From: Candidatus Kapaibacterium sp.
GTDB lineage: Bacteria > Bacteroidota > Ignavibacteria > Kapaibacteriales > UBA4661
Reading direction: 5' to 3'
NCBI GenBank assembly: GCA_025055035.1
Contig: JANWZB010000019.1
Coordinates: 1 to 32,800 of the forward strand
DNA length: 32,800 nucleotides
Under the pieces are notes generated by a model that had not been told where the DNA came from, did not search any database, and worked only from the letters and a program-made list of their open reading frames with translations. The translations under genes and the position numbers were made by a program. Shown one piece after another: positions 1 to 30,450 of this stretch. The stretch's first letter is position 1. Every line of letters starts with the position of its first letter.

Positions 1-3000
1 TCACGATGCTCAGCCCTAAGCCCGTACTGTGCTCGCCACCTGTTGGACGTGCCGAGAGCCGTACAAACTTTTGAAACAGTTTGTACTTATCTTGCTCAGC
101 GATGCCAGGTCCTTGATCTTGAACTTCCCAGCGCAACGCACCCGATTCCGCTTTGCAGATACGAACAATGATATCTGAACCTAACGGTGAATATTTGACC
201 GCATTCGATAGCAGATTGTCGAGAACTTGTGGCAGTAAAACGGTATCTGCGTACACAATTGGCTGCACACCATTCTGCTGGTAATGCAGAGTAATGCGCT
301 TTGTTGCAACACGCGCTTGGTATGCATCAAGCACAGTTCGTGTTATAGCGTCAAGATTACAGGGTACAATATCCACGCGTACCTTTCCCATTTCAAGGGC
401 ATTGATATCCAGCAGCTTTCCAATGAAGTCTAGCATTTGCTCACTCGCGCTTTGTATCTTTGCCAGATACTCAAATACCTCTGTCTGAGAGAGTTCACTA
501 AAGCGTTGTCGCAAGAGCTTCACAGCAAGCAGGGTTGCCACAAGAGGGTTTCGGAGATCATGCGACACAATAGCTAGAAGCTCATTCTTTTCATTGTTCA
601 GATGTGTAAGCTCGTGATTACGCGCAACAAGCATCTCATTGATGCCGTCGAGCTGCTTATAAGCTCGCTGAAGTTCGAGTGCTTGTTCTTGCTGTGCTAT
701 CATTTGACGTTGAATTTCTTCGTGAGCCTGCTCAAGCTTGTGATTAGTTTCTTGCAAGCTTTGTGTACGCATTTGAACAAGTTGTTCCAAGCGCCGTGTA
801 CTCTGGCGTAGAGCATACACTCGTGCTTGATATGTAGCAAGCGTACCAAGAATTACTGCTAGACCGATGCTGAGACGGAAATACCATGTTCCCCACCATG
901 GTGGAATAACACGGATATGCAATACAGCACCACGAGTATTCCAAACTCCATCATTATTGCTTGCCTGTACACGGAATATATATTCTCCCGGCTCAACATT
1001 GGTATATACAGCCTCCCGGCGCGTTCCCGCTTCTACCCACTGCTTATCGAAACCCTCCATGATGTAGCGATAGCGATTCTTCGAACTACCAACAAAATTG
1101 AGTGCGACGAATTCTAACGTAAAACTTGAGTACATATACGGCAACTCTATCATTGTGCGCTCACTGATAGCTGTATCGAACTCTATATTCTTTCCGAACA
1201 CCGCACAGTTTGTAATGACTACAGGTGGAATATACTGATTATCGCGAATACCGTCGGGATAAAACATGCTGTAGCCACCAATTCCTCCCACATACAAGCC
1301 TCCATCGGAACCATGGAGTACAGCATTACCATTAAATTCATTATGTTGTAGACCGTCCTGGCGTGTGTACAACGTACATGCCATTGTTGATACATGAAAG
1401 CGCACTAGCCCTTTATTTGTTGTAAGCCAAAGAAATCCCGCAGCATCTTCCAGAATGCCGTAGATAACATCATTTGGCAACCCGTCAGATTCCGTAAACC
1501 TTTGTATAACACCCGTTCTTGGATTAATACAATTCAGCCCGTCAAGTGTTCCAACCCATATATTCCCATGCGTGTCTTCGTGAAAGCAGCGTACTGTATT
1601 GTTACTCAGCCCATATTCTGGGATATTTTCATCATGCCGATATACTGCCCTAATACGGTTATGCTGTTTATCAAGAACGATAACTCCTAAGTTGACTGTT
1701 CCAATCCACAGTGTGCCGTCAGAGGCATGAAGTATTGCTCGGATAGCATCCGACGGCATATCCGACCCTACAACAACACTATCATTATGAACACTAAAGC
1801 ATAGACGCCTAAATGTCTGCGATTCCGCATTCAATCTGCACAAACCACCAAAGTTTGTTCCTACCCACAGCGTACCATCACGGTCAATATGTAAACAACG
1901 AATAACATTACTCGACAGCGAGTGCGAATCCTGAGGTCGATGGCGATAGACACGGCGTTTCCTTGTCCGAGGATGATACGCAAATAATCCATTCTGTGTT
2001 CCTATCCACAGTGTACCATCTTTTGCTGCTGCAAGTGCCCAAACATCTTCTGCACCTAGCGCCGTATCACCAGGTGGAACATAATTATGGCGTTCGAATA
2101 TACCTTTACTGCGAATGAAACGATTCAGCCCACCATCGATAACTCCTATCCACACCGTTCCATCCTTGTCTTCAGCAAACGCTCGCACAACATCAGATGA
2201 AAGACTTTGAGGATTCAACGGCTCATGACGATACGTTGTAAACCGCTGTGCTCCAGCAGCGTATTGATTCACACCACCTATCGACGTACCAATCCACATT
2301 GTACCAGCATTATCGCAGTATAGCGCACGTATCATATTATCACTAATGCTGGTGGGGTTATAAGGGTCGTGAACACACGACACAGTCATACCACCGTAAT
2401 GATGATAGACACTCACACCACGTCCGTCAAAGCCTACCCATATATTTCCTTTGTTGTCGGGGCATACAGAAAATACATCATTCGAAGCTGCTGGTGTAAG
2501 ACGCTTATTCCATATCATCACCTCTGCAGCAGTATACAATACTCGTTCCCACTGACGCTGCTGCACATCTACCCGAAGGAGTCCTCCTCCGCGGGTTCCT
2601 ACCCACAATATCCCCTCAGGGTCAGCATATAGTGCTGTAATGTAGCTATTTTCAGGCATAGCGGCATGAGGGAACGCCTGAGCAAACTCCTTGTCGTTGG
2701 TGGTATAAAACCACTCCCTAAGAATACCTCGTGGAGCAAACTCATAGGGTGCATCAAAATACATCCGAACAAATGAGGAATCATGCGGTTTGAAAAAACA
2801 TAATCCTCCGCCTAGCGTTGCAATCCAGAGAGTGTTGCGCACATCTGCTGTAATGGCAGATACTCGATTCGCTGGCAAGCTTCTAGTATCTTGTGCTGTA
2901 TGCACGAAGTTCCGCGCTGTTCCTGTTGCAGGGTCAAACAGACTTAGGCCTCCTTGTTCAGTTCCGACCCAAATTTTTCCTACACAGTCTTGGTATAATG

Positions 3001-3457
3001 CTAGAATGTTGTTATCCGCTATACTGTGTGGATGACGTGTATCGTGGACAAACGCCGTAAAACGATTGGTATAGTAGTCGTAGCGATTCAAGCCACCGCC
3101 AAATGTTCCTACCCACAAACAATGCTGTTTATGGTCGAATAATAAACTCCGTATATAGTTACTGCGTAGGGAATACGGAGCTTTATGGTTATGACGGAAT
3201 ACCCTAACACTGTATCCATCATATCGGCATAAGCCATCTTGTGTGCCAAACCACAAGAATCCATGATGATCTTGTGTAATTGCAAAGACGCTATTTTGAG
3301 GAAGTCCATGTTCTATTGCTACATGCTGAAATACCATTTGTGCGGAAGGCCATAAATTGGGCTTTGCTGACAGGTACAATGGCATGCACATGCTCCAGAC
3401 AAGTACATTAGAACACAGCATTCCAATGGTTTTTGCATTATACCGCCACTGAAACAT
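1..3457 (-). CDS. Two-component-regulator-propeller (HTCS-like) sensor histidine kinase, 3' end truncated by window start
   Basis: Not in the ORF track because no stop lies inside the window. Manual translation from ATG at 3457: MFQWRYNAKTIGML...VFQHVAIEHGLPQNSVFAITQDHHGFLWFGTQDGLCRYDGYSVRVFRHN (propeller repeat signature). Same frame verified at ~2614 (GILWVG), ~1558 (GNIWVGTLDGLNCI) and ~79 (LFQKFVRLSARPTGGEHSTGLGLSIV, HATPase G2 box). HisKA H-box IVSHDLRNPLVATLL near 540-590. Confidence 0.9.
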   Translation of the reverse strand, partial: MFQWRYNAKTIGMLCSNVLVWSMCMPLYLSAKPNLWPSAQMVFQHVAIEHGLPQNSVFAITQDHHGFLWFGTQDGLCRYDGYSVRVFRHNHKAPYSLRSNYIRSLLFDHKQHCLWVGTFGGGLNRYDYYTNRFTAFVHDTRHPHSIADNNILALYQDCVGKIWVGTEQGGLSLFDPATGTARNFVHTAQDTRSLPANRVSAITADVRNTLWIATLGGGLCFFKPHDSSFVRMYFDAPYEFAPRGILREWFYTTNDKEFAQAFPHAAMPENSYITALYADPEGILWVGTRGGGLLRVDVQQRQWERVLYTAAEVMIWNKRLTPAASNDVFSVCPDNKGNIWVGFDGRGVSVYHHYGGMTVSCVHDPYNPTSISDNMIRALYCDNAGTMWIGTSIGGVNQYAAGAQRFTTYRHEPLNPQSLSSDVVRAFAEDKDGTVWIGVIDGGLNRFIRSKGIFERHNYVPPGDTALGAEDVWALAAAKDGTLWIGTQNGLFAYHPRTRKRRVYRHRPQDSHSLSSNVIRCLHIDRDGTLWVGTNFGGLCRLNAESQTFRRLCFSVHNDSVVVGSDMPSDAIRAILHASDGTLWIGTVNLGVIVLDKQHNRIRAVYRHDENIPEYGLSNNTVRCFHEDTHGNIWVGTLDGLNCINPRTGVIQRFTESDGLPNDVIYGILEDAAGFLWLTTNKGLVRFHVSTMACTLYTRQDGLQHNEFNGNAVLHGSDGGLYVGGIGGYSMFYPDGIRDNQYIPPVVITNCAVFGKNIEFDTAISERTMIELPYMYSSFTLEFVALNFVGSSKNRYRYIMEGFDKQWVEAGTRREAVYTNVEPGEYIFRVQASNNDGVWNTRGAVLHIRVIPPWWGTWYFRLSIGLAVILGTLATYQARVYALRQSTRRLEQLVQMRTQSLQETNHKLEQAHEEIQRQMIAQQEQALELQRAYKQLDGINEMLVARNHELTHLNNEKNELLAIVSHDLRNPLVATLLAVKLLRQRFSELSQTEVFEYLAKIQSASEQMLDFIGKLLDINALEMGKVRVDIVPCNLDAITRTVLDAYQARVATKRITLHYQQNGVQPIVYADTVLLPQVLDNLLSNAVKYSPLGSDIIVRICKAESGALRWEVQDQGPGIAEQDKYKLFQKFVRLSARPTGGEHSTGLGLSIV

Positions 3458-3490
3458 ACACCCTACACCACTAAAATTCTACACAGCATC

Positions 3491-3514
3491 GTTCTGATTT
3501 ATGTTCTGATTTAT
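3491..3514. repeat. Perfect 12-bp tandem duplication (gttctgatttat x2) upstream of the propeller kinase gene
   Basis: Read directly: gttctgatttat gttctgatttat, 34 nt upstream of ATG 3457. Confidence 0.85.
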
Positions 3515-3649
3515 CAACGTGATATGAAGATATCTATACGCCTAAACAGCACACAAGCCCTGCAGGAAAGGCACATTTGCTTGCAGTGCCGTTACCTGAA
3601 GGGCTCTGGTGCTATGAGTGTCTTGAACTAGGATTGTTTTCCTGTAGTA

Positions 3650-5317
3650 TCACTCTCTCAAGAGGCGACGTAGTATCTTACCCACGTTGCTTTTAGGCAG
3701 CTCATTACGAAACTCTACATGTTTTGGTACTTTATATCCTGTCAGGTGCTGTTTACAGAACTCTTTAATCTCTTCGGCAGTTAAGCTGGGGTCTTTCTTC
3801 ACAATGAAGGCTTTAACAGCTTCATGGGACTTCTCATCGGGTACACCAATCACTCCAACCTCTAGTACTTTCGGATGCATAGCAATGACATTTTCTACTT
3901 CATTTGGGTACACATTAAAGCCCGACACGAGAATCATTTCTTTTTTCCTGTCCACGATTTTGATAAAACCATCTTCATCCATTACACCGATATCACCTGT
4001 CTTGAACCAGCCGTTATGCATAACATTCGCTGTTTCTTCAGGGCGTTGCCAGTATCCTAGCATAATCTGCGGACCGCGTGCCCAGATTTCACCACGCTCT
4101 CCTATTGGTACCATCTCATTGTTATCGTTGAAGATACCAATTTCCGTACTCGGTAAGGGCAACCCAATATACCCACGGCGGTGCGTTCCGTCCATTGGAT
4201 TCACCGTAAGACCCGGCGACGTTTCCGTCAGACCATACGCTTCATACAGCACACAGCCCGTTACCTTTTCCCATTTTTCCGCAACAGCATCTTGCACTGC
4301 CATACCACCGCCTAGCGTAATATTTAAGCGCGAGAAATCGCATTTTGTGAACTCAGGATGATTCAGCAGACCGTTGAAGAGCGTGTTCACACCACTGATA
4401 ACAGTGAACTTATGCTTCTTTAGTTCTTCGACAAAGGCGTCCATATCACGCGGGTTAGTAATCAAAACATTCTTTGCTCCATACCGCATTGGACCGAAAA
4501 AGTTGAACGTCAAAGCGAAAATGTGATAGAGTGGAAGTGCGGTAATAATAATCTCTTCACCGGGATTTTTGAGCTTAGGAAACATCCACGCAACGAGCAT
4601 CTCCATGTTCGACAGAATATTTCTGTGCGTTAGCATCGCCCCTTTGGAAACACCCGTTGTACCCCCTGTGTATTGCAAAAATGCAAGATCGTTGCTTTTG
4701 ATATCGGGCTTTGTATACTGTGCTTTTGCACCTTCGTTCAAAGCATCCTTGAGCATGATTGCATTTGGAATATCGTAGGGTGGTACCATCTTTTTTATAT
4801 ACTTGATGGCAGCATTCATCAGCCAGCCTTTGATTCCAGGTACCATATCAGCTACTTCGGTAATAATCACTGTGTGAATTTGCGTTTCGGCAAGAATACT
4901 TTGCAGATTTGCAGCAAAGTTTTCGACAATCACAATTGCTGTTGCACCGGAATCATTAAACTGGTGCCGCATCTCTTGCGGCGTATAGAGAGGATTAGTG
5001 TTCACAACAGTTAAGCCCGCACGCAGCGCACCCATGACTACAACTGCATACTGAATAAGATTGGGCATTTGCACAGCAATACGATCGCCTTTCTTAAAGC
5101 CACGCTTTTGCAAAAATGCAGCAAATTGAAGGGCAAGCCTGTGAACCTCATTGTAAGTTAGCACCACACCCAAATTCTCATATCCCGGTCTATCGCCATA
5201 TTGCTGTAGGCAATCATCCATAAATTCTAGGAGCGACGGAAAACGGTCGGGGTTGATATGCTCAGGAACGCCTTTGGGATAGGACTTCAGCCAGATTTTT
5301 TCTACTTCTTGCACCAT
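3650..5317 (-). CDS. fadD: Long-chain-fatty-acid--CoA ligase (AMP-binding)
   Basis: YTGGTTGVSKGAMLTHRN AMP-binding motif, YGLTETSP, GWFKTGDIGVMDEDGFIKIVDRKKEMILVSGFNVYPNEVE, PKSNVGKILRR. Start chosen at internal MVQEVEKIW (5317) rather than the track start 5374. Confidence 0.92.
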   Translation of the reverse strand: MVQEVEKIWLKSYPKGVPEHINPDRFPSLLEFMDDCLQQYGDRPGYENLGVVLTYNEVHRLALQFAAFLQKRGFKKGDRIAVQMPNLIQYAVVVMGALRAGLTVVNTNPLYTPQEMRHQFNDSGATAIVIVENFAANLQSILAETQIHTVIITEVADMVPGIKGWLMNAAIKYIKKMVPPYDIPNAIMLKDALNEGAKAQYTKPDIKSNDLAFLQYTGGTTGVSKGAMLTHRNILSNMEMLVAWMFPKLKNPGEEIIITALPLYHIFALTFNFFGPMRYGAKNVLITNPRDMDAFVEELKKHKFTVISGVNTLFNGLLNHPEFTKCDFSRLNITLGGGMAVQDAVAEKWEKVTGCVLYEAYGLTETSPGLTVNPMDGTHRRGYIGLPLPSTEIGIFNDNNEMVPIGERGEIWARGPQIMLGYWQRPEETANVMHNGWFKTGDIGVMDEDGFIKIVDRKKEMILVSGFNVYPNEVENVIAMHPKVLEVGVIGVPDEKSHEAVKAFIVKKDPSLTAEEIKEFCKQHLTGYKVPKHVEFRNELPKSNVGKILRRLLRE

Positions 5318-8036: not shown

Positions 8037-10202
8037 TCACGTCGCCTGCTGTAGTAGTGGCAGCTGTACAACAATCCTTGCTCCTTCGCCTTCCTTGCTT
8101 ACAATGTTTATTGTTCCTTGATGCAACTCTACAATCTGGCGGGCAATTGCTAAGCCAATTCCGTGCGATGATTCACCGCTAGTTGGTTGTGCCGATAGCC
8201 GCTGAAAAAACTCGAACCCCTTGAGCTTATCTTCCTCTGTAAATCCTATACCCTCATCGCGGATACTCCATATGGCGTGAGTATCATCTGCTACATCAAC
8301 ATCAATCCAGATTGTTCCACCCTCAGGCGAGTACTTGATAGCATTGCTCACAAGATTATCGAATACTTGAAACAAGCGCTGCGTATCGCCCATGACCCAT
8401 ACTTCACACCTATACCCTAACAGAAACGACTGATGCTTGCGTTCAGCTGCGTACTGGTGATGTGCTACGACGCCCGATGTAAGGCTACAAAGCTCGACAG
8501 GTGCTTTATGCAGCACAATATTTCCCATACTGCGTGCAGCTGTATCAAGTAGATCTCGCACTAGCATACCCATTCTTTCACCAGATTCTGCAATATACCG
8601 CAAAGCCTCACGCATTCGCTCATCTAGCTTCGGACTGTCCAGCAATACGGATGCTATGCCAGTGATGGAAACAATAGGATTTTTCAGGTCATGCGACACT
8701 ACACTGAGCATATTCAAACGAAACTGTTCGGCATTCACCAGCGCTTGATTCTTTTCTTGCAGCTCGTTGTTCATCAGGGCAAGATTACTCATCGCTTCCT
8801 GGAGCTCTACATTTGCATATTCAATCTGTTGTGCTTGTTCAGCTTGCACTTCGAGCTGCCGTTGAATCTCTTCATTCGCTCTGCTCAGCTGTATATTGGC
8901 TTCCGCCAATTCTTGTGTTCGCTCACGAACTTGGCGTTCCAAGAGTGTCTGCTGCTCGCGCAGTATGCGTTCATTCTCCAGTAGCACCTGCTGACGCTCT
9001 CTCTGCAACTGCCGAATCCGATAGGCTAGTGCAAATGACATCAGTAACAACTCAACAGCCGCTGCTATATTCGGAAGCGCAAGCATCGCAGGAGAAAATG
9101 GTATCCAACCCTCTAACGAGGGAGGAACAATAAACAATGAACACAGCACAAGAGACCATGCTGTGAGATATATCCATGCTGCACGATTACCTCGCATGCC
9201 AGACATAACACTGACAACGACACAGTATAGCACAGACACCATAGAAAGCACTATTGCTATGCTAATAAGCACCGTATTCGCCGACCGAACAACGAAGAAT
9301 GCCCCCCACACTATGGAAAGCAAGATAAGGAGAATGTACCCCGGAAGAAGCATTGCTACTAACGTAGTAGTGATGTGGAAGAATCGCATAGCAAATGCAA
9401 CACTCAGAAAGGAAATACACATCACAATCTGCAAAACCCTACCGTGTAGCACTTCTGCGATGTATTCCCCCGCTATAGGCACGATCATACCCGTCACATA
9501 TGCTACATACGTAGCTGTTGATAAGCCATAGAGTGTGTACAAGGCATAGGTACTACTTTGCATCATAAGGCTGAGAAAACCATTATAGCACACAATCGCC
9601 AGCATCATGCCTACAAGAATTCCATATAGCAAGAGCCGTTTGTTGTAGAACATTCGCATGGCATGTTCCGTGCCACAGTATAGCATTGTAAACACAGGCT
9701 CACGGCTTACTAGCCGAATATATACATGCTGGAGAGCAGTATCTACGCGTGCACAGTATATCATTGTGGTTGGTAGCCCGGAAGCTGTGCGCGAAGAAAA
9801 TGTCAAGCCTGCATACTCTTGTAGTACGTTACTCTGTTCCCCTACATTTCCATTCTGCGCTTCGCCGACAAATGTGAAGACTTGAATAGTATCTAAACCA
9901 CTATCATCGAACCAGACAATCACTGGCTCGTGTGTATTATTGCGAATATCAAAGCGCAGCCACACAGCGTATGGTGTCGCTGGTACAGAAAATGCAATAG
10001 TGGATTCTAGCGTTGTGCTACGTTTGAGAACATCGTTAATGCTGTAAGAGCGGGAAACGGTAGGATACACTAGTGGTTTTTCCAATTGTACAACATCGTT
10101 GCTGTTCACCGTAATCAAAGGAACGTGTGGCGATGCATACACTCTAAGGTGCAGAAAAAGAGCGCATATACAGACATATGATAGGCAGGCGCAAGACATC
10201 AT
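8037..10202 (-). CDS. 7TMR-DISM-type sensor histidine kinase (7TMR-DISMED2 extracellular + 7TM + coiled coil + HisKA + HATPase_c)
   Basis: Signal peptide, beta-rich extracellular region (TPYAVWLRFDIRNNTHEPVIVWFDDSGLDTIQVF), seven hydrophobic segments starting LLLYGILVGMMLAIVCYNGFLSL, long coiled coil, VVSHDLKNPIVSITG, NLVSNAIKYSPEGG, RDEGIGFTEED, HGIGLAIARQIVELHQG. Confidence 0.9.
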   Translation of the reverse strand: MMSCACLSYVCICALFLHLRVYASPHVPLITVNSNDVVQLEKPLVYPTVSRSYSINDVLKRSTTLESTIAFSVPATPYAVWLRFDIRNNTHEPVIVWFDDSGLDTIQVFTFVGEAQNGNVGEQSNVLQEYAGLTFSSRTASGLPTTMIYCARVDTALQHVYIRLVSREPVFTMLYCGTEHAMRMFYNKRLLLYGILVGMMLAIVCYNGFLSLMMQSSTYALYTLYGLSTATYVAYVTGMIVPIAGEYIAEVLHGRVLQIVMCISFLSVAFAMRFFHITTTLVAMLLPGYILLILLSIVWGAFFVVRSANTVLISIAIVLSMVSVLYCVVVSVMSGMRGNRAAWIYLTAWSLVLCSLFIVPPSLEGWIPFSPAMLALPNIAAAVELLLMSFALAYRIRQLQRERQQVLLENERILREQQTLLERQVRERTQELAEANIQLSRANEEIQRQLEVQAEQAQQIEYANVELQEAMSNLALMNNELQEKNQALVNAEQFRLNMLSVVSHDLKNPIVSITGIASVLLDSPKLDERMREALRYIAESGERMGMLVRDLLDTAARSMGNIVLHKAPVELCSLTSGVVAHHQYAAERKHQSFLLGYRCEVWVMGDTQRLFQVFDNLVSNAIKYSPEGGTIWIDVDVADDTHAIWSIRDEGIGFTEEDKLKGFEFFQRLSAQPTSGESSHGIGLAIARQIVELHQGTINIVSKEGEGARIVVQLPLLQQAT

Positions 10203-10274: not shown

Positions 10275-10826
10275 TCACTGTATAACCTGTGCAATTTGGA
10301 GGAGTTCCGCAGATATTTCCTGCGCTTCGTTTTTTAACTGCTGGCGATGAACGATAATATTTGCCTTGCCATTTCTGATACCAAGAGCAATTGAGGCTTT
10401 CCCAGTTCGCGCAAGCATTGGGATACCGGTAATCGACAGGATACGATGTTGTGCACAAATCTTCTCAACGTTCAGCACGCCGGGACTAATATACACTACT
10501 TGAACGTCGGCGATGCTTTTTTCAAGTGCTGATTCCAATACTGCTGTTGTTGCTATACCTTGCGCCTCAAATGCAGCAACCAGGCTATCCTTTATATCAC
10601 TCGAAATGCTGCTATACACAACAGCAAGCTTCAGCTTCTTTTTTCCTTCAAAGGATTTGTTGAACAAGAACACACGACGAAAGATTTCCGCTTGCGTTTC
10701 GATGCGCAATGGCATTTCTTGTGCTGCTCCGATAGCACACCACAGGTACCAGAACGCTAGTATGCAGAACAAGCGCGTTCTGGCATTGCATCTCGCACGA
10801 CCATGCAGCATTATCGAGCATCTCAC
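10275..10826 (-). CDS. YfiR family (DUF4154) periplasmic protein
   Basis: Signal peptide ending CAIGAAQEM; QAEIFRRVFLFNKSF near N-terminus; VQVVYISPGVLNVEKI...RILSITGIPMLARTGKASIALGIRNGKANIIVHRQQLKNEAQEISAELLQIAQVI matches the DUF4154 C-terminal pattern. First codon is GTG at 10826; alternative ATG at 10811. Confidence 0.82.
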   Translation of the reverse strand: MRCSIMLHGRARCNARTRLFCILAFWYLWCAIGAAQEMPLRIETQAEIFRRVFLFNKSFEGKKKLKLAVVYSSISSDIKDSLVAAFEAQGIATTAVLESALEKSIADVQVVYISPGVLNVEKICAQHRILSITGIPMLARTGKASIALGIRNGKANIIVHRQQLKNEAQEISAELLQIAQVIQ

Positions 10827-13225
10827 CGCTCACTCCTCCCAAATGTTAGCTGTACTCCCACTGTGGCCCGTAATGGAAGCTGGGGAGTTCCACGCAGAAA
10901 CTCGATTTCACTATACTGAGGTATAGTAACAGCTTCGGGGTGTGTTAAATCGGCAACAACACGGTAGCGTGCATCAAGGACATTGTCTACACGTACAAAT
11001 GCTTCGAGCCATGACAGCAGCGTATATCGTGCTGTGAGATTAACAAGCGTATATCCGTCAATTGTCTGCCGTCGCTGAGGATTTTGGGACTGAAAGGGCA
11101 CAGTACGCTGTCGGTCTTGCCAAATCACTCGTGCGCTCACCTGAAGACGTTCATGGTTCAGCTGCACACCACCTTTGAACGCCAACGGAGAGACGTATGG
11201 AATTTCGCGCCCTTCGCTCTCATTATCCGTGAGACTAATCCTTCCGTCAATCCACGACAGTGCACCAAAAAGCTCTACACGTGTTGTTTGATTACGAAGT
11301 GGGATGTACTGTGCGCTGAGCGTTGCACCATAGGTAACTTGGCGACCTTGATTGGTAAAAATGACAATCGTTGAAACAGGATAACCTTTGTATCGCCCAC
11401 CGTATAGATTGAGCGTGGAAGCATCAGGAACTTCGCGAAAGAGACCGTTCAGCGCCGTCATAAAACCACTTGCTGTAAGACTAACGTCATCATTCAGAAA
11501 CGACAACAGCACTAGCTCTGCCGTTTGAGAGGTAATCGGTTTGAGATTAGGATTAGCGAGCTTCCAAAAGCTTCCAGTGTATGTGTTATTCACACTGTCA
11601 TACGAAAATGAACCATACTGTTCAAATGCATAGCGTGGAGCAGCACCCAGAAACGCTGTCCCATACATTACTTTTGCGGTGAAGGAACGCGATGGCGACC
11701 ATACGGCACCAAAACGTGGGTTGAGCGACGCACCAAAGAGCGAGTTTGCATCATACCGCCCGCCAACATTCACATTAAGCTGCGATATGGGCGTCCATTG
11801 GGCTTGTACAAAGCCTCCTACATTGAGATAGGGTATGTAAAAAATATCGGCATCTATCCCAAGTGGATTACGTGCATTCGCAGTACCGAAAATTCTCCCT
11901 TGAAGATACGGTAAGCCAACACTTGATACCATCGGGGACTCGAGATCAGTAGTCTTGGGTACAGAGATAAAATATTCAGCTGTCAGGCTACCACTTACAG
12001 TCAATCTGTCAGACCATGCATGCTGCACAAGTTGCTCTACTTTAAACATCGAGCCAAACGCATACTTGTAGCCCGGACCGAGATTATTAAACAGGTTGCG
12101 ATAATTCGATATCGGGTCTAATTCATATTGGCTATATACTACAGAGGATATCAGAGTTGTGCGCCCAAGTGCCGCTTGATACATTCCCGACAGCATAGTG
12201 AGCGTTGGTGCAAAGAATACGTCATCGTTGTACACGGCATTGTATTGTGGATAGCCGAGACACGTTGTTGAACGAGCATATGAACGAAAGAGGCTGACTG
12301 TCAGCCCAGCAGCTTCTACTTTAAGCCATTGAGCATTTGCACTAATAGGCGATCCCCATTGCTGACGAATAGGACTTTGCGGGCGCATAATACCAAAGCC
12401 TGTTCGAAAAATTCCTGTTTGTAGTGTGTTCTCCCGACCATAATCTTCGGGATAGAACTGCCGCATATCTGGCATTGGGTCATACATATACTGTGCACCC
12501 ATCATGACATTGATATTGTCGTTGAGTGTAAAACCAGCTAGAATATTTCCTTGAAAGCGGCTATACATTGAGCCGCTGGAACTGGCTTCCACCGGACCGT
12601 CCATATCAAAAGAGCGTTTCGATACAATGTTAATCACGCCCATCACTGCATCTGCACCGTAGAGCGACGATGCAGGGCTATAGATTACTTCAATTTGCAG
12701 TGCTAGATGCACGGGATAGTTTTCGAGCAGCGGCATAAACTCATTGGTTGGCGAGGAAATCCGCACACCGTCGAGCAAAACAATAAATTTGTCTTGACCG
12801 AACACTCCACGGACATTGATGCGGTTGACGGATTCTTGATTTGCTAGCCCCTCAATTTTGTAGTCGGGTAAATCCATCAAAACATCTGTCAGTGAGGTAT
12901 AACCACGCGCACGAATTTGTTCTGCAGTAATTGTGGTAACCGTTGCAGCGGCGTTTTTTGCCGACATGTACTGCGTGCGAGACACAGCAGCCACATCAAC
13001 ACTGCTAACCGCCGATAGATCTAGATATACTCCTATGAGAGATTTCAGTTCTTCCTTGCCTGTGGAGTAGTCTATACTTTGCCCTTTTGTCGTGGAATCC
13101 TGATGCTTAGCTTCTTGAGCATCTACACAAAAGTAAGGAGCTGTGCACCATGCGAAGAATAGCGCATACCGAATAAGAGCCGTACTCAGGTGTTTATCCT
13201 TGAGTACCTCATGGAACAATATCAT
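10823..13225 (-). CDS. TonB-dependent receptor (plug + beta-barrel)
   Basis: Signal peptide (YALFFAWCTAPYFCVDAQE); plug TVTTITAEQIRARGYTSLTDVLMDLPDYKIEG...NVRGVFGQDKFIVLLDGVRISSP...IEVIYSPASSLYGADAVMGVINIVSKR; C-terminal barrel with VRVDNVLDARYR and terminal TVGVQLTFGRSER. Confidence 0.92.
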   Translation of the reverse strand: MILFHEVLKDKHLSTALIRYALFFAWCTAPYFCVDAQEAKHQDSTTKGQSIDYSTGKEELKSLIGVYLDLSAVSSVDVAAVSRTQYMSAKNAAATVTTITAEQIRARGYTSLTDVLMDLPDYKIEGLANQESVNRINVRGVFGQDKFIVLLDGVRISSPTNEFMPLLENYPVHLALQIEVIYSPASSLYGADAVMGVINIVSKRSFDMDGPVEASSSGSMYSRFQGNILAGFTLNDNINVMMGAQYMYDPMPDMRQFYPEDYGRENTLQTGIFRTGFGIMRPQSPIRQQWGSPISANAQWLKVEAAGLTVSLFRSYARSTTCLGYPQYNAVYNDDVFFAPTLTMLSGMYQAALGRTTLISSVVYSQYELDPISNYRNLFNNLGPGYKYAFGSMFKVEQLVQHAWSDRLTVSGSLTAEYFISVPKTTDLESPMVSSVGLPYLQGRIFGTANARNPLGIDADIFYIPYLNVGGFVQAQWTPISQLNVNVGGRYDANSLFGASLNPRFGAVWSPSRSFTAKVMYGTAFLGAAPRYAFEQYGSFSYDSVNNTYTGSFWKLANPNLKPITSQTAELVLLSFLNDDVSLTASGFMTALNGLFREVPDASTLNLYGGRYKGYPVSTIVIFTNQGRQVTYGATLSAQYIPLRNQTTRVELFGALSWIDGRISLTDNESEGREIPYVSPLAFKGGVQLNHERLQVSARVIWQDRQRTVPFQSQNPQRRQTIDGYTLVNLTARYTLLSWLEAFVRVDNVLDARYRVVADLTHPEAVTIPQYSEIEFLRGTPQLPLRATVGVQLTFGRSER

Positions 13226-13357
13226 GAAGCAATGCTGGAACTGATAGACTATTGCATTGACGAATGCGTGTCTTCAAATATGGTACGATTCCTTGTCTTG
13301 TGCAAGTTTTTTCCTATATTTGCTCGCACATGTTTTTCCCTTTCGTTTATCTTGTGT

Positions 13358-14758
13358 ATGGCCTTCCACCATCGTGCGCTTGCCTCTTACGTTCGCCATC
13401 AACGTTCATCAATTAGCACCCAAATCTCTCTTCTTATTTTCCTGTTTATTATTGCTCTGACTGCGCTGAACGTCATTGCGTCGTCTATCCAGCAAAAAGA
13501 AAGTGGCGAAGAATTTGTGCTACAAGAAACACGCGCTATTGGAGAGCTTGCAGCAGCAGGCAGCACAGGCGGAGTTGTATTCAACGATCGCGACTTTTTG
13601 GCAAAATCTATGCAAGGTATTGAACAACTCTCCACATTCGAGGCAATTATTATTCGCAATACCACCGGCGATAGTATCTACACAAAAAACGCTTCTATCC
13701 TTACACCGTTTCTCGGCTCGCGCCAGACACAGCAACCAGATACACTCATTCGTGTTTTTCTCCACAATGATATCGCTATCGCCCGTGTACCTATTGTCGC
13801 TGTTGTCAATCGAGAATATCTCGGCGAAGTATTCCTTGCACTCAACACGCGTGCTACCCAACAGAGCATTCAGCGTAGCCGAACCACTCTATTGCTCATT
13901 GGTATTCTTGGAGCAATGGTTTGTACAGTTGGGGCTCTCTATTTTGCGCTGCACCTCGCAAAGCCAATCGTAGCGCTTTACAATGCGGCACAGCGTATTA
14001 GCGAAGGAGATTTACGCCAGCGTGTGCACATTGCTGCATCATCCCACGAGGTTGACGGCTTAATACAAGCGTTTAACAGCATGATGGATAGCTTAGAACA
14101 CTCGAATCAAGCACTTAAGGTTGAGCAGGAACGCTCTGAGCACCTTCTTCTCAATATGCTTCCTGCACCTATCGCAGAGCGCATGAAAGCAGGAGAAAAG
14201 CTCATCGCTGATACATACCATGCTGTTACAGTCATGTTTATCGACATTGTTGGCTTTACTACACTCGCTTCTACTATGCCTGCTGAACACCTCGTTGCAA
14301 TGCTCAATCAGGTATTCTCGCACTTTGATACAATCTTACGCAAGCACAAAGTCGAAAAAATCAAAACTATTGGCGATGGCTACATGGCTGTTTCTGGTCT
14401 GCCATACAGTGCCGCAGAGCATGCACACAACGCTGCATATACGGCACTTGAATTGATTGACAGCATGAGCAGACTTAATAGTGAGCAAGGGTTGTCTCTT
14501 GACATTCGTATTGGACTACATGCAGGAACAGTTGTTGCAGGAGTGATTGGTCAACACAAATTTGCCTACGACCTTTGGGGTGACACCGTCAATGTTGCAT
14601 CGCGCATGGAATCGCATGGTGAAAAGGGGAAGATTCATTGTTCTGAAGCAGTCTATGCACTGTTACACCATGACTTTGCCTTTGAAGAACGAGGCGCCAT
14701 GCACATTAAAGGAAAAGGTGATATGAAGACGTACTTCCTTCTGCACCCGCTACACTAG
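13358..14758 (+). CDS. CHASE8-like periplasmic sensor + HAMP + class III adenylate/guanylate cyclase (residues suggest adenylate cyclase)
   Basis: Track ORF begins 13190, overlapping the divergent receptor; start MAFHHRALASYVRHQRSSIS at 13358 preferred. IGELAAAGSTGGVVFNDRDFLAKSMQGIEQLSTFEAIIIRNTTGDSIYTKN (CHASE8-like), LAKPIVALYNAAQRISEGDLRQRV (HAMP), VTVMFIDIVGFTTLAS, KVEKIKTIGDGYMAVSGLP, DIRIGLHAGTVVAGVIGQHKFAYDLWGDTVNVASRMES (cyclase core). Confidence 0.9.
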   Translation: MAFHHRALASYVRHQRSSISTQISLLIFLFIIALTALNVIASSIQQKESGEEFVLQETRAIGELAAAGSTGGVVFNDRDFLAKSMQGIEQLSTFEAIIIRNTTGDSIYTKNASILTPFLGSRQTQQPDTLIRVFLHNDIAIARVPIVAVVNREYLGEVFLALNTRATQQSIQRSRTTLLLIGILGAMVCTVGALYFALHLAKPIVALYNAAQRISEGDLRQRVHIAASSHEVDGLIQAFNSMMDSLEHSNQALKVEQERSEHLLLNMLPAPIAERMKAGEKLIADTYHAVTVMFIDIVGFTTLASTMPAEHLVAMLNQVFSHFDTILRKHKVEKIKTIGDGYMAVSGLPYSAAEHAHNAAYTALELIDSMSRLNSEQGLSLDIRIGLHAGTVVAGVIGQHKFAYDLWGDTVNVASRMESHGEKGKIHCSEAVYALLHHDFAFEERGAMHIKGKGDMKTYFLLHPLH

Positions 14759-29805: not shown

Positions 29806-30450
29806 CTATCTGTTACTGCTCGGGAGAAGCTGACGAAACTCTCGCATGAGAGTTTGAATCTTGCTTAGCGAAGATTTCGAGCGCACAGCAAGATTCTGCA
29901 CTTCGTTGGCAACCACAGCAAACCCCGCTCCTTGTGCTCCTGCACGGCTTGCTTCGATTGTTGCATTAACAGCAAGAAGATTGAGCGACTTCAAGATTTT
30001 CTCAATTTCATTGCTGGATGCCTCAATTTCAACGCTCTTTTCTCCCAGTGTTGCAAGCAAGTCTCGTGTACCAGATTTTATCCTTGAAATGATTCCTACA
30101 AGACATTGTTCACCTGCAGAAGGGATTGGATAGCCACGTTCATGCACCCACAGCGTTGCACCTGTGCGATTTTTGATGCGATATTCGATATCATACACAT
30201 TCCCTGTTCGGACTGCCTCTGCAACTGCAGCGTCAATTTGCGATGTGTCGTTAGGATGAATTAGCGCACCAAGTGTGATTTTGTTGCTCGTAAATTCGCT
30301 TGCATCATATCCTGTTACTGCTTTCACAGATTCCGATATTGCAAGCATTGTCCAATGCTCATCAATCCTGCACTTAAAGAAGAAGCTTTCAATGCGATTG
30401 GCAATAGTATTGTACAATGCCAACATGTCTTCGCTGGGGAGCATTTCCAT
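29806..30450 (-). CDS. Compact PAS + minimal MCP signalling-tip protein (214 aa, no TM)
   Basis: PAS: AISESVKAVTGYDASEFTSNKITLGALIHPNDTSQID...EYRIKNRTGATLWVHERGYPI; MCP tip: IEKILKSLNLLAVNATIEASRAGAQGAGFAVVANEVQNLAVRS. Confidence 0.88.
   Translation of the reverse strand: MEMLPSEDMLALYNTIANRIESFFFKCRIDEHWTMLAISESVKAVTGYDASEFTSNKITLGALIHPNDTSQIDAAVAEAVRTGNVYDIEYRIKNRTGATLWVHERGYPIPSAGEQCLVGIISRIKSGTRDLLATLGEKSVEIEASSNEIEKILKSLNLLAVNATIEASRAGAQGAGFAVVANEVQNLAVRSKSSLSKIQTLMREFRQLLPSSNR
29836..29855. repeat. Perfect 8-bp inverted repeat AAACTCTC-gcat-GAGAGTTT in the 3' end of the PAS-MCP gene
   Basis: Read directly. Confidence 0.85.

Follow-up and report, generated by a model that had tools for sequence, protein, structure and literature searches.

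A candidate relay from a TonB-dependent receptor to cyclic AMP, by way of a YfiR-like protein and a CHASE8-like adenylate cyclase, in a Candidatus Kapaibacterium genome

Can the state of an outer-membrane receptor be read in the periplasm and turned directly into the synthesis of cAMP? The question is raised by three neighbouring genes in a window of 32,800 nt (the whole stretch of DNA that was analysed, i.e., contig C110 of G000, a 3.16-Mb genome that is 99.5% complete), which an earlier note on this DNA had proposed to be a new system. The natural term of comparison is YfiBNR of P. aeruginosa (YfiR-DgcN-YfiB in E. coli), with which the locus has in common a periplasmic YfiR, an effector with CHASE8 and HAMP that works through a nucleotide messenger, an outer-membrane partner and a motif resembling AAVVF. 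Unlike YfiBNR, however, it has an adenylate cyclase instead of GGDEF, a TonB-dependent receptor (TBDR) instead of the YfiB lipoprotein, a YfiR that lacks the conserved cysteines and an effector gene that is divergent. A gene for a YfiB lipoprotein of the OmpA/PAL type is absent from the cluster in the window, where the adjacent genes encode the TBDR, a kinase and moeA. Most work on the YfiR-CHASE8 core has dealt with it as a c-di-GMP switch. At this locus it is apparently tied to a TonB receptor and to a cAMP enzyme, so that an outside signal could pass directly into cAMP, which makes for a path from outer membrane to second messenger that can be put to the test.

The coordinates that the earlier note assigned to the three genes are correct (Table 1), and each of the parts is what it had been taken for, that is, a DUF4154 match, a protein with Plug and beta-barrel domains, and a protein with HAMP and Guanylate_cyc domains (the latter called AC hereafter). 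The YfiR-like gene had also been described as translationally adjacent to the receptor gene, as borne out by the 4-nt overlap of the receptor stop with the YfiR start (10823-10826). The AC gene diverges from the receptor gene, and moeA lies tail-to-tail beyond it.

Table 1. Positions in the window of the genes, domains and motifs of the locus.
Feature	Position	Strand	Remarks
YfiR-like (DUF4154) gene	10275-10826	-	183 aa, GTG start
TonB-dependent receptor (TBDR)	10823-13225	-	800 aa, plug and beta-barrel
TM-CHASE8-like-TM-HAMP-class III adenylate cyclase (AC)	13358-14758	+	inner-membrane (predicted); longest ORF opens at GTG 13190
CHASE8-like periplasmic sensor of AC	13490-13876	+	residues 101-229; profile comparison
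GGVVF motif in AC sensor	13568-13582	+	residues 127-131; aligned with AAVVF of YfiN
HAMP domain of AC	13943-14098	+	Pfam PF00672, residues 252-303, 1.8e-11
Class III catalytic domain of AC	14210-14743	+	Pfam PF00211 (Guanylate_cyc), 9.1e-66
Conserved divergent promoter region (predicted)	13277-13322		44-bp block and TTG-N19-TATATTTG
7TMR-DISM histidine kinase	8037-10202	-	72 nt downstream of the YfiR gene

The distance of 132 nt given for the two divergent starts (13226-13357) is right provided that AC starts at ATG 13358, and the longest ORF of AC begins within the receptor gene. The DNA of a close relative, Candidatus Kapaibacterium sp. Prado071 (G007), bears on this point: positions 13277-13320 form with it an ungapped block of 44 bp with 41/44 identical positions, reaching a local score of 35, where none of 1000 shuffles exceeded 15. 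Since the reading frame of the block differs between the two genomes and the identity is nonetheless this high, the block would be conserved as DNA and not as protein, which supports its being non-coding promoter DNA. It runs, in addition, into TTG-N19-TATATTTG (13293-13322, + strand), which we take to fit the promoter consensus of the Bacteroidota type, and from this promoter-like end together with the conservation at the DNA level, ATG 13358 is most likely the start of AC. A scan for sigma-70 promoters gave no more matches than expected by chance.

Of the two proteins encoded on the opposite strand, the receptor matches Pfam PF07715 (Plug) and PF00593 (beta-barrel), and no STN domain was detected in it by Pfam. 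The YfiR-like protein, for which a signal peptide ending near ...GAAQ is predicted, passes the Pfam DUF4154 model (PF13689) with 26.1 bits, above the cut-off of 24.9, in agreement with the family assignment of the earlier note. Moreover, a profile of its family (A6), built without any sequence from E. coli or Pseudomonas, matches the P. aeruginosa YfiR structures with E of about 1e-11, and the AlphaFold model of the protein (pLDDT 95.5) matches the YfiR structures 4zhu, 4yn9 and 5eb1 in Foldseek. The disulfide pair of PAO1 (Cys145-Cys152) is absent, Ala139 and Ala147 standing at the aligned sites, and in the patch that binds YfiN the hydrophobic character is kept while the central Phe is replaced by Ile (Phe162 of PAO1 by Ile157, and Leu183 by Ile178, according to the alignment). 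Judged on these comparisons, the protein belongs to the YfiR family without resembling PAO1 YfiR closely.

Is the periplasmic part of AC a CHASE8 domain, as the earlier note had it? In the strict sense of the Pfam model it is not, as PF17152 gives no match to AC at E<1 and none in the close relatives of AC either, and its CHASE8 identity therefore called for more sensitive profiles. With these the likeness stands. A search with nothing but the AC sensor retrieves Pfam-positive CHASE8 proteins from relatives (E=2.5e-11 and 5.8e-6); the periplasmic part of AC, once the TMs are removed, matches a profile of Pfam-positive CHASE8 proteins with E=1.4e-11 (the best of 500 shuffled controls reached 0.018), all other matches of the periplasmic profile being CHASE8 proteins; and a comparison by hhalign with a CHASE8 profile in which E. 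coli DgcN is represented yields a probability of 98-99%, placing GGVVF on AAVVF. Two NCBIfam models agree, both over spans that include HAMP, namely NF053592 (sensor of YfiR-associated histidine kinases; E=1.5e-11, positions 4-222 of 223) and the DgcN/YfiN model (E=3.2e-8). The AlphaFold model of the sensor (pLDDT 88.7) matches the periplasmic domain of CitA (1p0z, 2v9a), the fold on which the model of the YfiN sensor was based by Malone et al. (PMC3375315), who also identified AAVVF as the YfiR-binding motif of YfiN. The position of Phe131 is at least 90% conserved in the CHASE8 set, and the motif Phe occurs in 74 of 78 YfiR-adjacent sensors (two of the remaining four are gapped at the motif). 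On this profile evidence, the AC sensor belongs to a divergent subfamily of CHASE8 which escapes the Pfam model. A cyclase with a CHASE8-like sensor from another genome, G008, in which no YfiR was found, had been considered as a control for loss of the Phe motif and was dropped due to its ambiguous alignment (VSIGF fits with a small gap).

Class III cyclases bind metal through two Asp residues, select adenine with a Lys/Asp pair and use an Asn and an Arg in the transition state. In the alignment of the AC catalytic domain both metal Asp, the adenine-selecting Lys (EKIKTIGD) and Asp (YDLWGD), the Asn and the Arg are present, and AC is thus predicted to be a class III adenylate cyclase with complete catalytic residues. 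Its genome has 12-13 class III cyclase matches (two of them partial) and 6 cNMP-binding matches, and contains no GGDEF domain according to a search whose eight control genomes, E. coli among them, all gave GGDEF matches. The Kapaibacterium-type host therefore appears unable to make c-di-GMP, and given the missing GGDEF and about a dozen class III cyclases, second-messenger signalling in this lineage apparently rests on cAMP and not on c-di-GMP. The proposal of a cyclic-nucleotide output in the place of c-di-GMP fits the catalytic residues, the cNMP-binding proteins and the lack of GGDEF alike.

How general is the arrangement? YfiR genes of relatives and of sampled genomes of the phylum and the class were collected, each with several kb of flanking DNA, resulting in a survey of 123 genes in which a neighbour was any gene within 3.2 kb. 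A TBDR lies near 87 of the 123, in keeping with the outer-membrane slot that had been given to the receptor, a CHASE8 protein near 75 and both near 60, so that TBDR-YfiR-CHASE8-X recurs as an arrangement. With the TBDR present, X is a histidine kinase (29), a kinase-receiver (17), a chemoreceptor (13), an adenylate cyclase (2) or undetermined (3), the two CHASE8-adenylate cyclases of the survey being those of the window and of G007. The association exceeds chance, since the 7 full-length CHASE8-like sensors of the 3.16-Mb genome would place about 0.02 sensors within 3.2 kb of a YfiR gene. Elsewhere, the CHASE8 genes beside YfiR are almost always co-directional with it, usually follow it and usually encode kinases. 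On contig C209 of the window genome, the closest paralogous locus has the order TBDR-YfiR-CHASE8-HAMP-MCP. Furthermore, a receiver-class III cyclase is encoded directly upstream of TBDR-YfiR-CHASE8-kinase-receiver in L163:3874-5316 and L194:8519-9961, and upstream of TBDR-CHASE8-kinase-receiver, where the ORF screen called no YfiR, in L197:9471-10925 (three genomes of two other families). The adenine-selecting residues of these cyclases differ, which makes their product uncertain; they seem to be a second link, of the phosphorelay type, between the TBDR-YfiR module and cyclic nucleotides, and a connection of the TBDR-YfiR-CHASE8 module with cyclic nucleotides seems to have arisen repeatedly.

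In G007, moeA, AC, TBDR and YfiR are all kept (57, 72, 74 and 70%, respectively), which provides, along with the 44-bp promoter block, the conserved neighbourhood that the earlier note would lead one to expect. The gene below YfiR in that genome is not the 7TMR kinase but a CHASE8-HAMP-kinase, whose sensor is sister to that of AC (50% identity, clade support 99/99 in the tree) and which flanks the same YfiR; BLAST had suggested that this protein was a second cyclase, a candidate discarded once domain scans returned CHASE8-HAMP-histidine kinase. As moeA is also kept, the synteny of two congeneric genomes was judged weak, and the moeA loci of other members of the genus and family were therefore checked. 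In G001, G003-G006 and G009 the AC-TBDR-YfiR block is absent from these loci, and close orthologues of AC or YfiR are lacking in the same genomes, from which the block appears to have been gained or lost together and to behave as a unit. G002 has TBDR-YfiR (71%) and no AC orthologue in its assembly, in which the contig ends inside the receptor; G008 has the CHASE8-like cyclase already mentioned and no YfiR found, being only 70% complete. No clear match to the AC-type sensor turned up in 396 genomes that belong to the phylum but not to the genus, and several members of the sensor subclade (MCPs and kinases) have no YfiR nearby.

Taking the observed parts, motif and linkage together, the best explanation, to which we give somewhat better than even credence, is a TBDR-YfiR-CHASE8 relay with a cAMP output, whose binding, receptor coupling and sign would be as follows. 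The outer-membrane receptor would change its state upon ligand binding or TonB engagement; the periplasmic YfiR-like protein would be held by the receptor or released from it, the state of the receptor thus setting the amount of free YfiR; this, we infer, would dock on the exposed surface around Phe131 (GGVVF) of the CHASE8-like domain; and HAMP would transmit this to the dimeric cyclase and in this way govern the synthesis of cAMP. If YfiBNR is taken as the model, YfiR is most likely an inhibitor whose effect is lifted when the receptor is engaged, the sign of regulation probably being the least certain step of the relay. Arguing for the relay, as far as sequence comparisons go, are the assignment of the sensor to CHASE8 by several routes, the conservation of the Phe that would bind YfiR and the recurrence of TBDR-YfiR-CHASE8-X; the retention in G007 of AC-TBDR-YfiR with its promoter, the kinase with the sister sensor beside the same YfiR and the apparent joint gain or loss of the block; and the paralogue on C209, the 12-13 cyclases and 6 cNMP-binding proteins in a genome lacking GGDEF, and the receiver-cyclases upstream of the module in three genomes. 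Against it count the divergent AC gene, where CHASE8 genes elsewhere are almost always co-directional, the restriction of the AC version to two congeneric genomes, with G002 carrying TBDR-YfiR without AC (at a contig end), the members of the sensor subclade without YfiR, and a YfiR with Ile157 for Phe162 and without Cys145/Cys152. A broader formulation, for which the chances look evenly balanced, is that the TonB receptor has direct control of cAMP synthesis, exerted by way of a soluble, periplasmic YfiR-like protein and a CHASE8-like AC. This would be a tri-layer relay in a lineage without c-di-GMP and one example of a more general TBDR-YfiR input module for cyclases, kinases and chemoreceptors.

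A serious alternative, although an unlikely one, is that the YfiR-like protein binds a small ligand in the manner of LuxP for LuxQ, taking up the substrate of the receptor in the periplasm and, once loaded, influencing the CHASE8-like domain, perhaps by activating it. The best Foldseek matches of its model are indeed ‘substrate-binding proteins’ of Rhodothermus marinus (6k1x, 8wgl and 5z6v), alongside YfiR, the model of the AC sensor also matches the periplasmic domain of LuxQ, and a TBDR is an importer; a similarity of fold is by itself, however, no proof of ligand binding, and the mode of action of YfiR in P. aeruginosa is protein-protein sequestration (PMC3375315, PMC4655355). Distinctly unlikely is that TBDR-YfiR signals to another protein (the 7TMR-DISM kinase or some other CHASE8 protein), AC being merely a divergent neighbour: this kinase is on the same strand as YfiR and closely spaced from it, and the CHASE8 partner elsewhere is as a rule encoded after YfiR in the same direction and is in most cases a kinase, but by Pfam the 7TMR kinase has no CHASE8 domain and it does not adjoin YfiR in G007 or G002, whereas AC has both the YfiR-type sensor and the motif and is a conserved neighbour in G007 with its promoter. 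Improbable, finally, is an ordinary Cache/PDC-type sensor in AC with its own small ligand and independent of YfiR, since the fold shared with the ligand-binding domains of CitA and DcuS, the missing CHASE8 call by Pfam, the sister sensors (MCPs and kinases) away from any YfiR and the G008 cyclase in an incomplete genome are set against the conserved YfiR-binding motif, the linkage to YfiR in both genomes and the G007 kinase that carries the nearest sensor and flanks the same YfiR.

Is the candidate relay, then, a new system? Like the TonB-dependent transducer/anti-sigma signalling of the Fec/Fpv type, it would have a TonB receptor from which a signal of external origin crosses the periplasm and reaches the inner membrane. 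Receptors of that type signal by means of an STN domain at their N-terminus and an anti-sigma factor, and neither of the two was detected in the window. Closer still is a trio modelled in NCBIfam (TOL_0244 TBDR, TOL_0243 YfiR-like and YfiR-like-associated histidine kinase; NF053590-NF053592), which has the same TBDR, YfiR-like protein and CHASE8-type sensor. Its output is a kinase whereas that of the window is a cyclase, and the window proteins are far below the equivalog cut-offs (62.8/645, 16.5/125 and 44.3/194 bits), as in the case of the receptor against the TOL_0244 family (E=2.3e-17). Already in 2012, Malone et al. (PMC3375315) proposed that the YfiR-YfiN core is modular with interchangeable outputs (kinase, GGDEF-EAL, HPT and MCP), and in the window, likewise, YfiR would control a CHASE8-HAMP protein with a swappable output, although their main text mentions neither a cyclase output nor a TonB receptor. 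In view of this modular core and of the trio, the claim of a new system falls and that of a known module with a new output takes its place, the new element being the predicted direct cAMP output, which occurs in two genomes, that of the window being one without a GGDEF domain. In the openly accessible literature that was searched, no paper was found that connects YfiR and TonB receptors, or CHASE8 and adenylate cyclases, in this sense, nor any describing the role of the widespread TBDR-YfiR gene pairs, for which the window locus suggests a function.

Some further arrangements were noticed around the same families. A CHASE8-like histidine kinase lies between two class III cyclases in three genomes (L187:5984-11716, L188:4533-10774 and L067:1-5176), the last of them being on C209 of the window genome, a few kb from the paralogous TBDR-YfiR-CHASE8-MCP locus. 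Tandem CHASE8-HAMP pairs (MCP and MCP, or MCP and kinase) stand beside one TBDR-YfiR in L137:4192-5904 and 2256-4106 and in L076:5476-8837, which suggests that one YfiR may serve several outputs. In the window itself, 29806-30450 encodes a short PAS-MCP protein (214 aa), in which the match to the MCP signalling domain is confined to positions 28-99 of 172. Lastly, nine genomes of the family of the window have a YfiR-like gene with a signal peptide between atpH and atpA, 61-166 bp before atpA (L070:4031-4531, on contig C221 of the window genome, where the identity of atpH as ATP synthase delta/OSCP was checked by Pfam, and L147, L134, L136, L153, L144, L083, L139 and L152).
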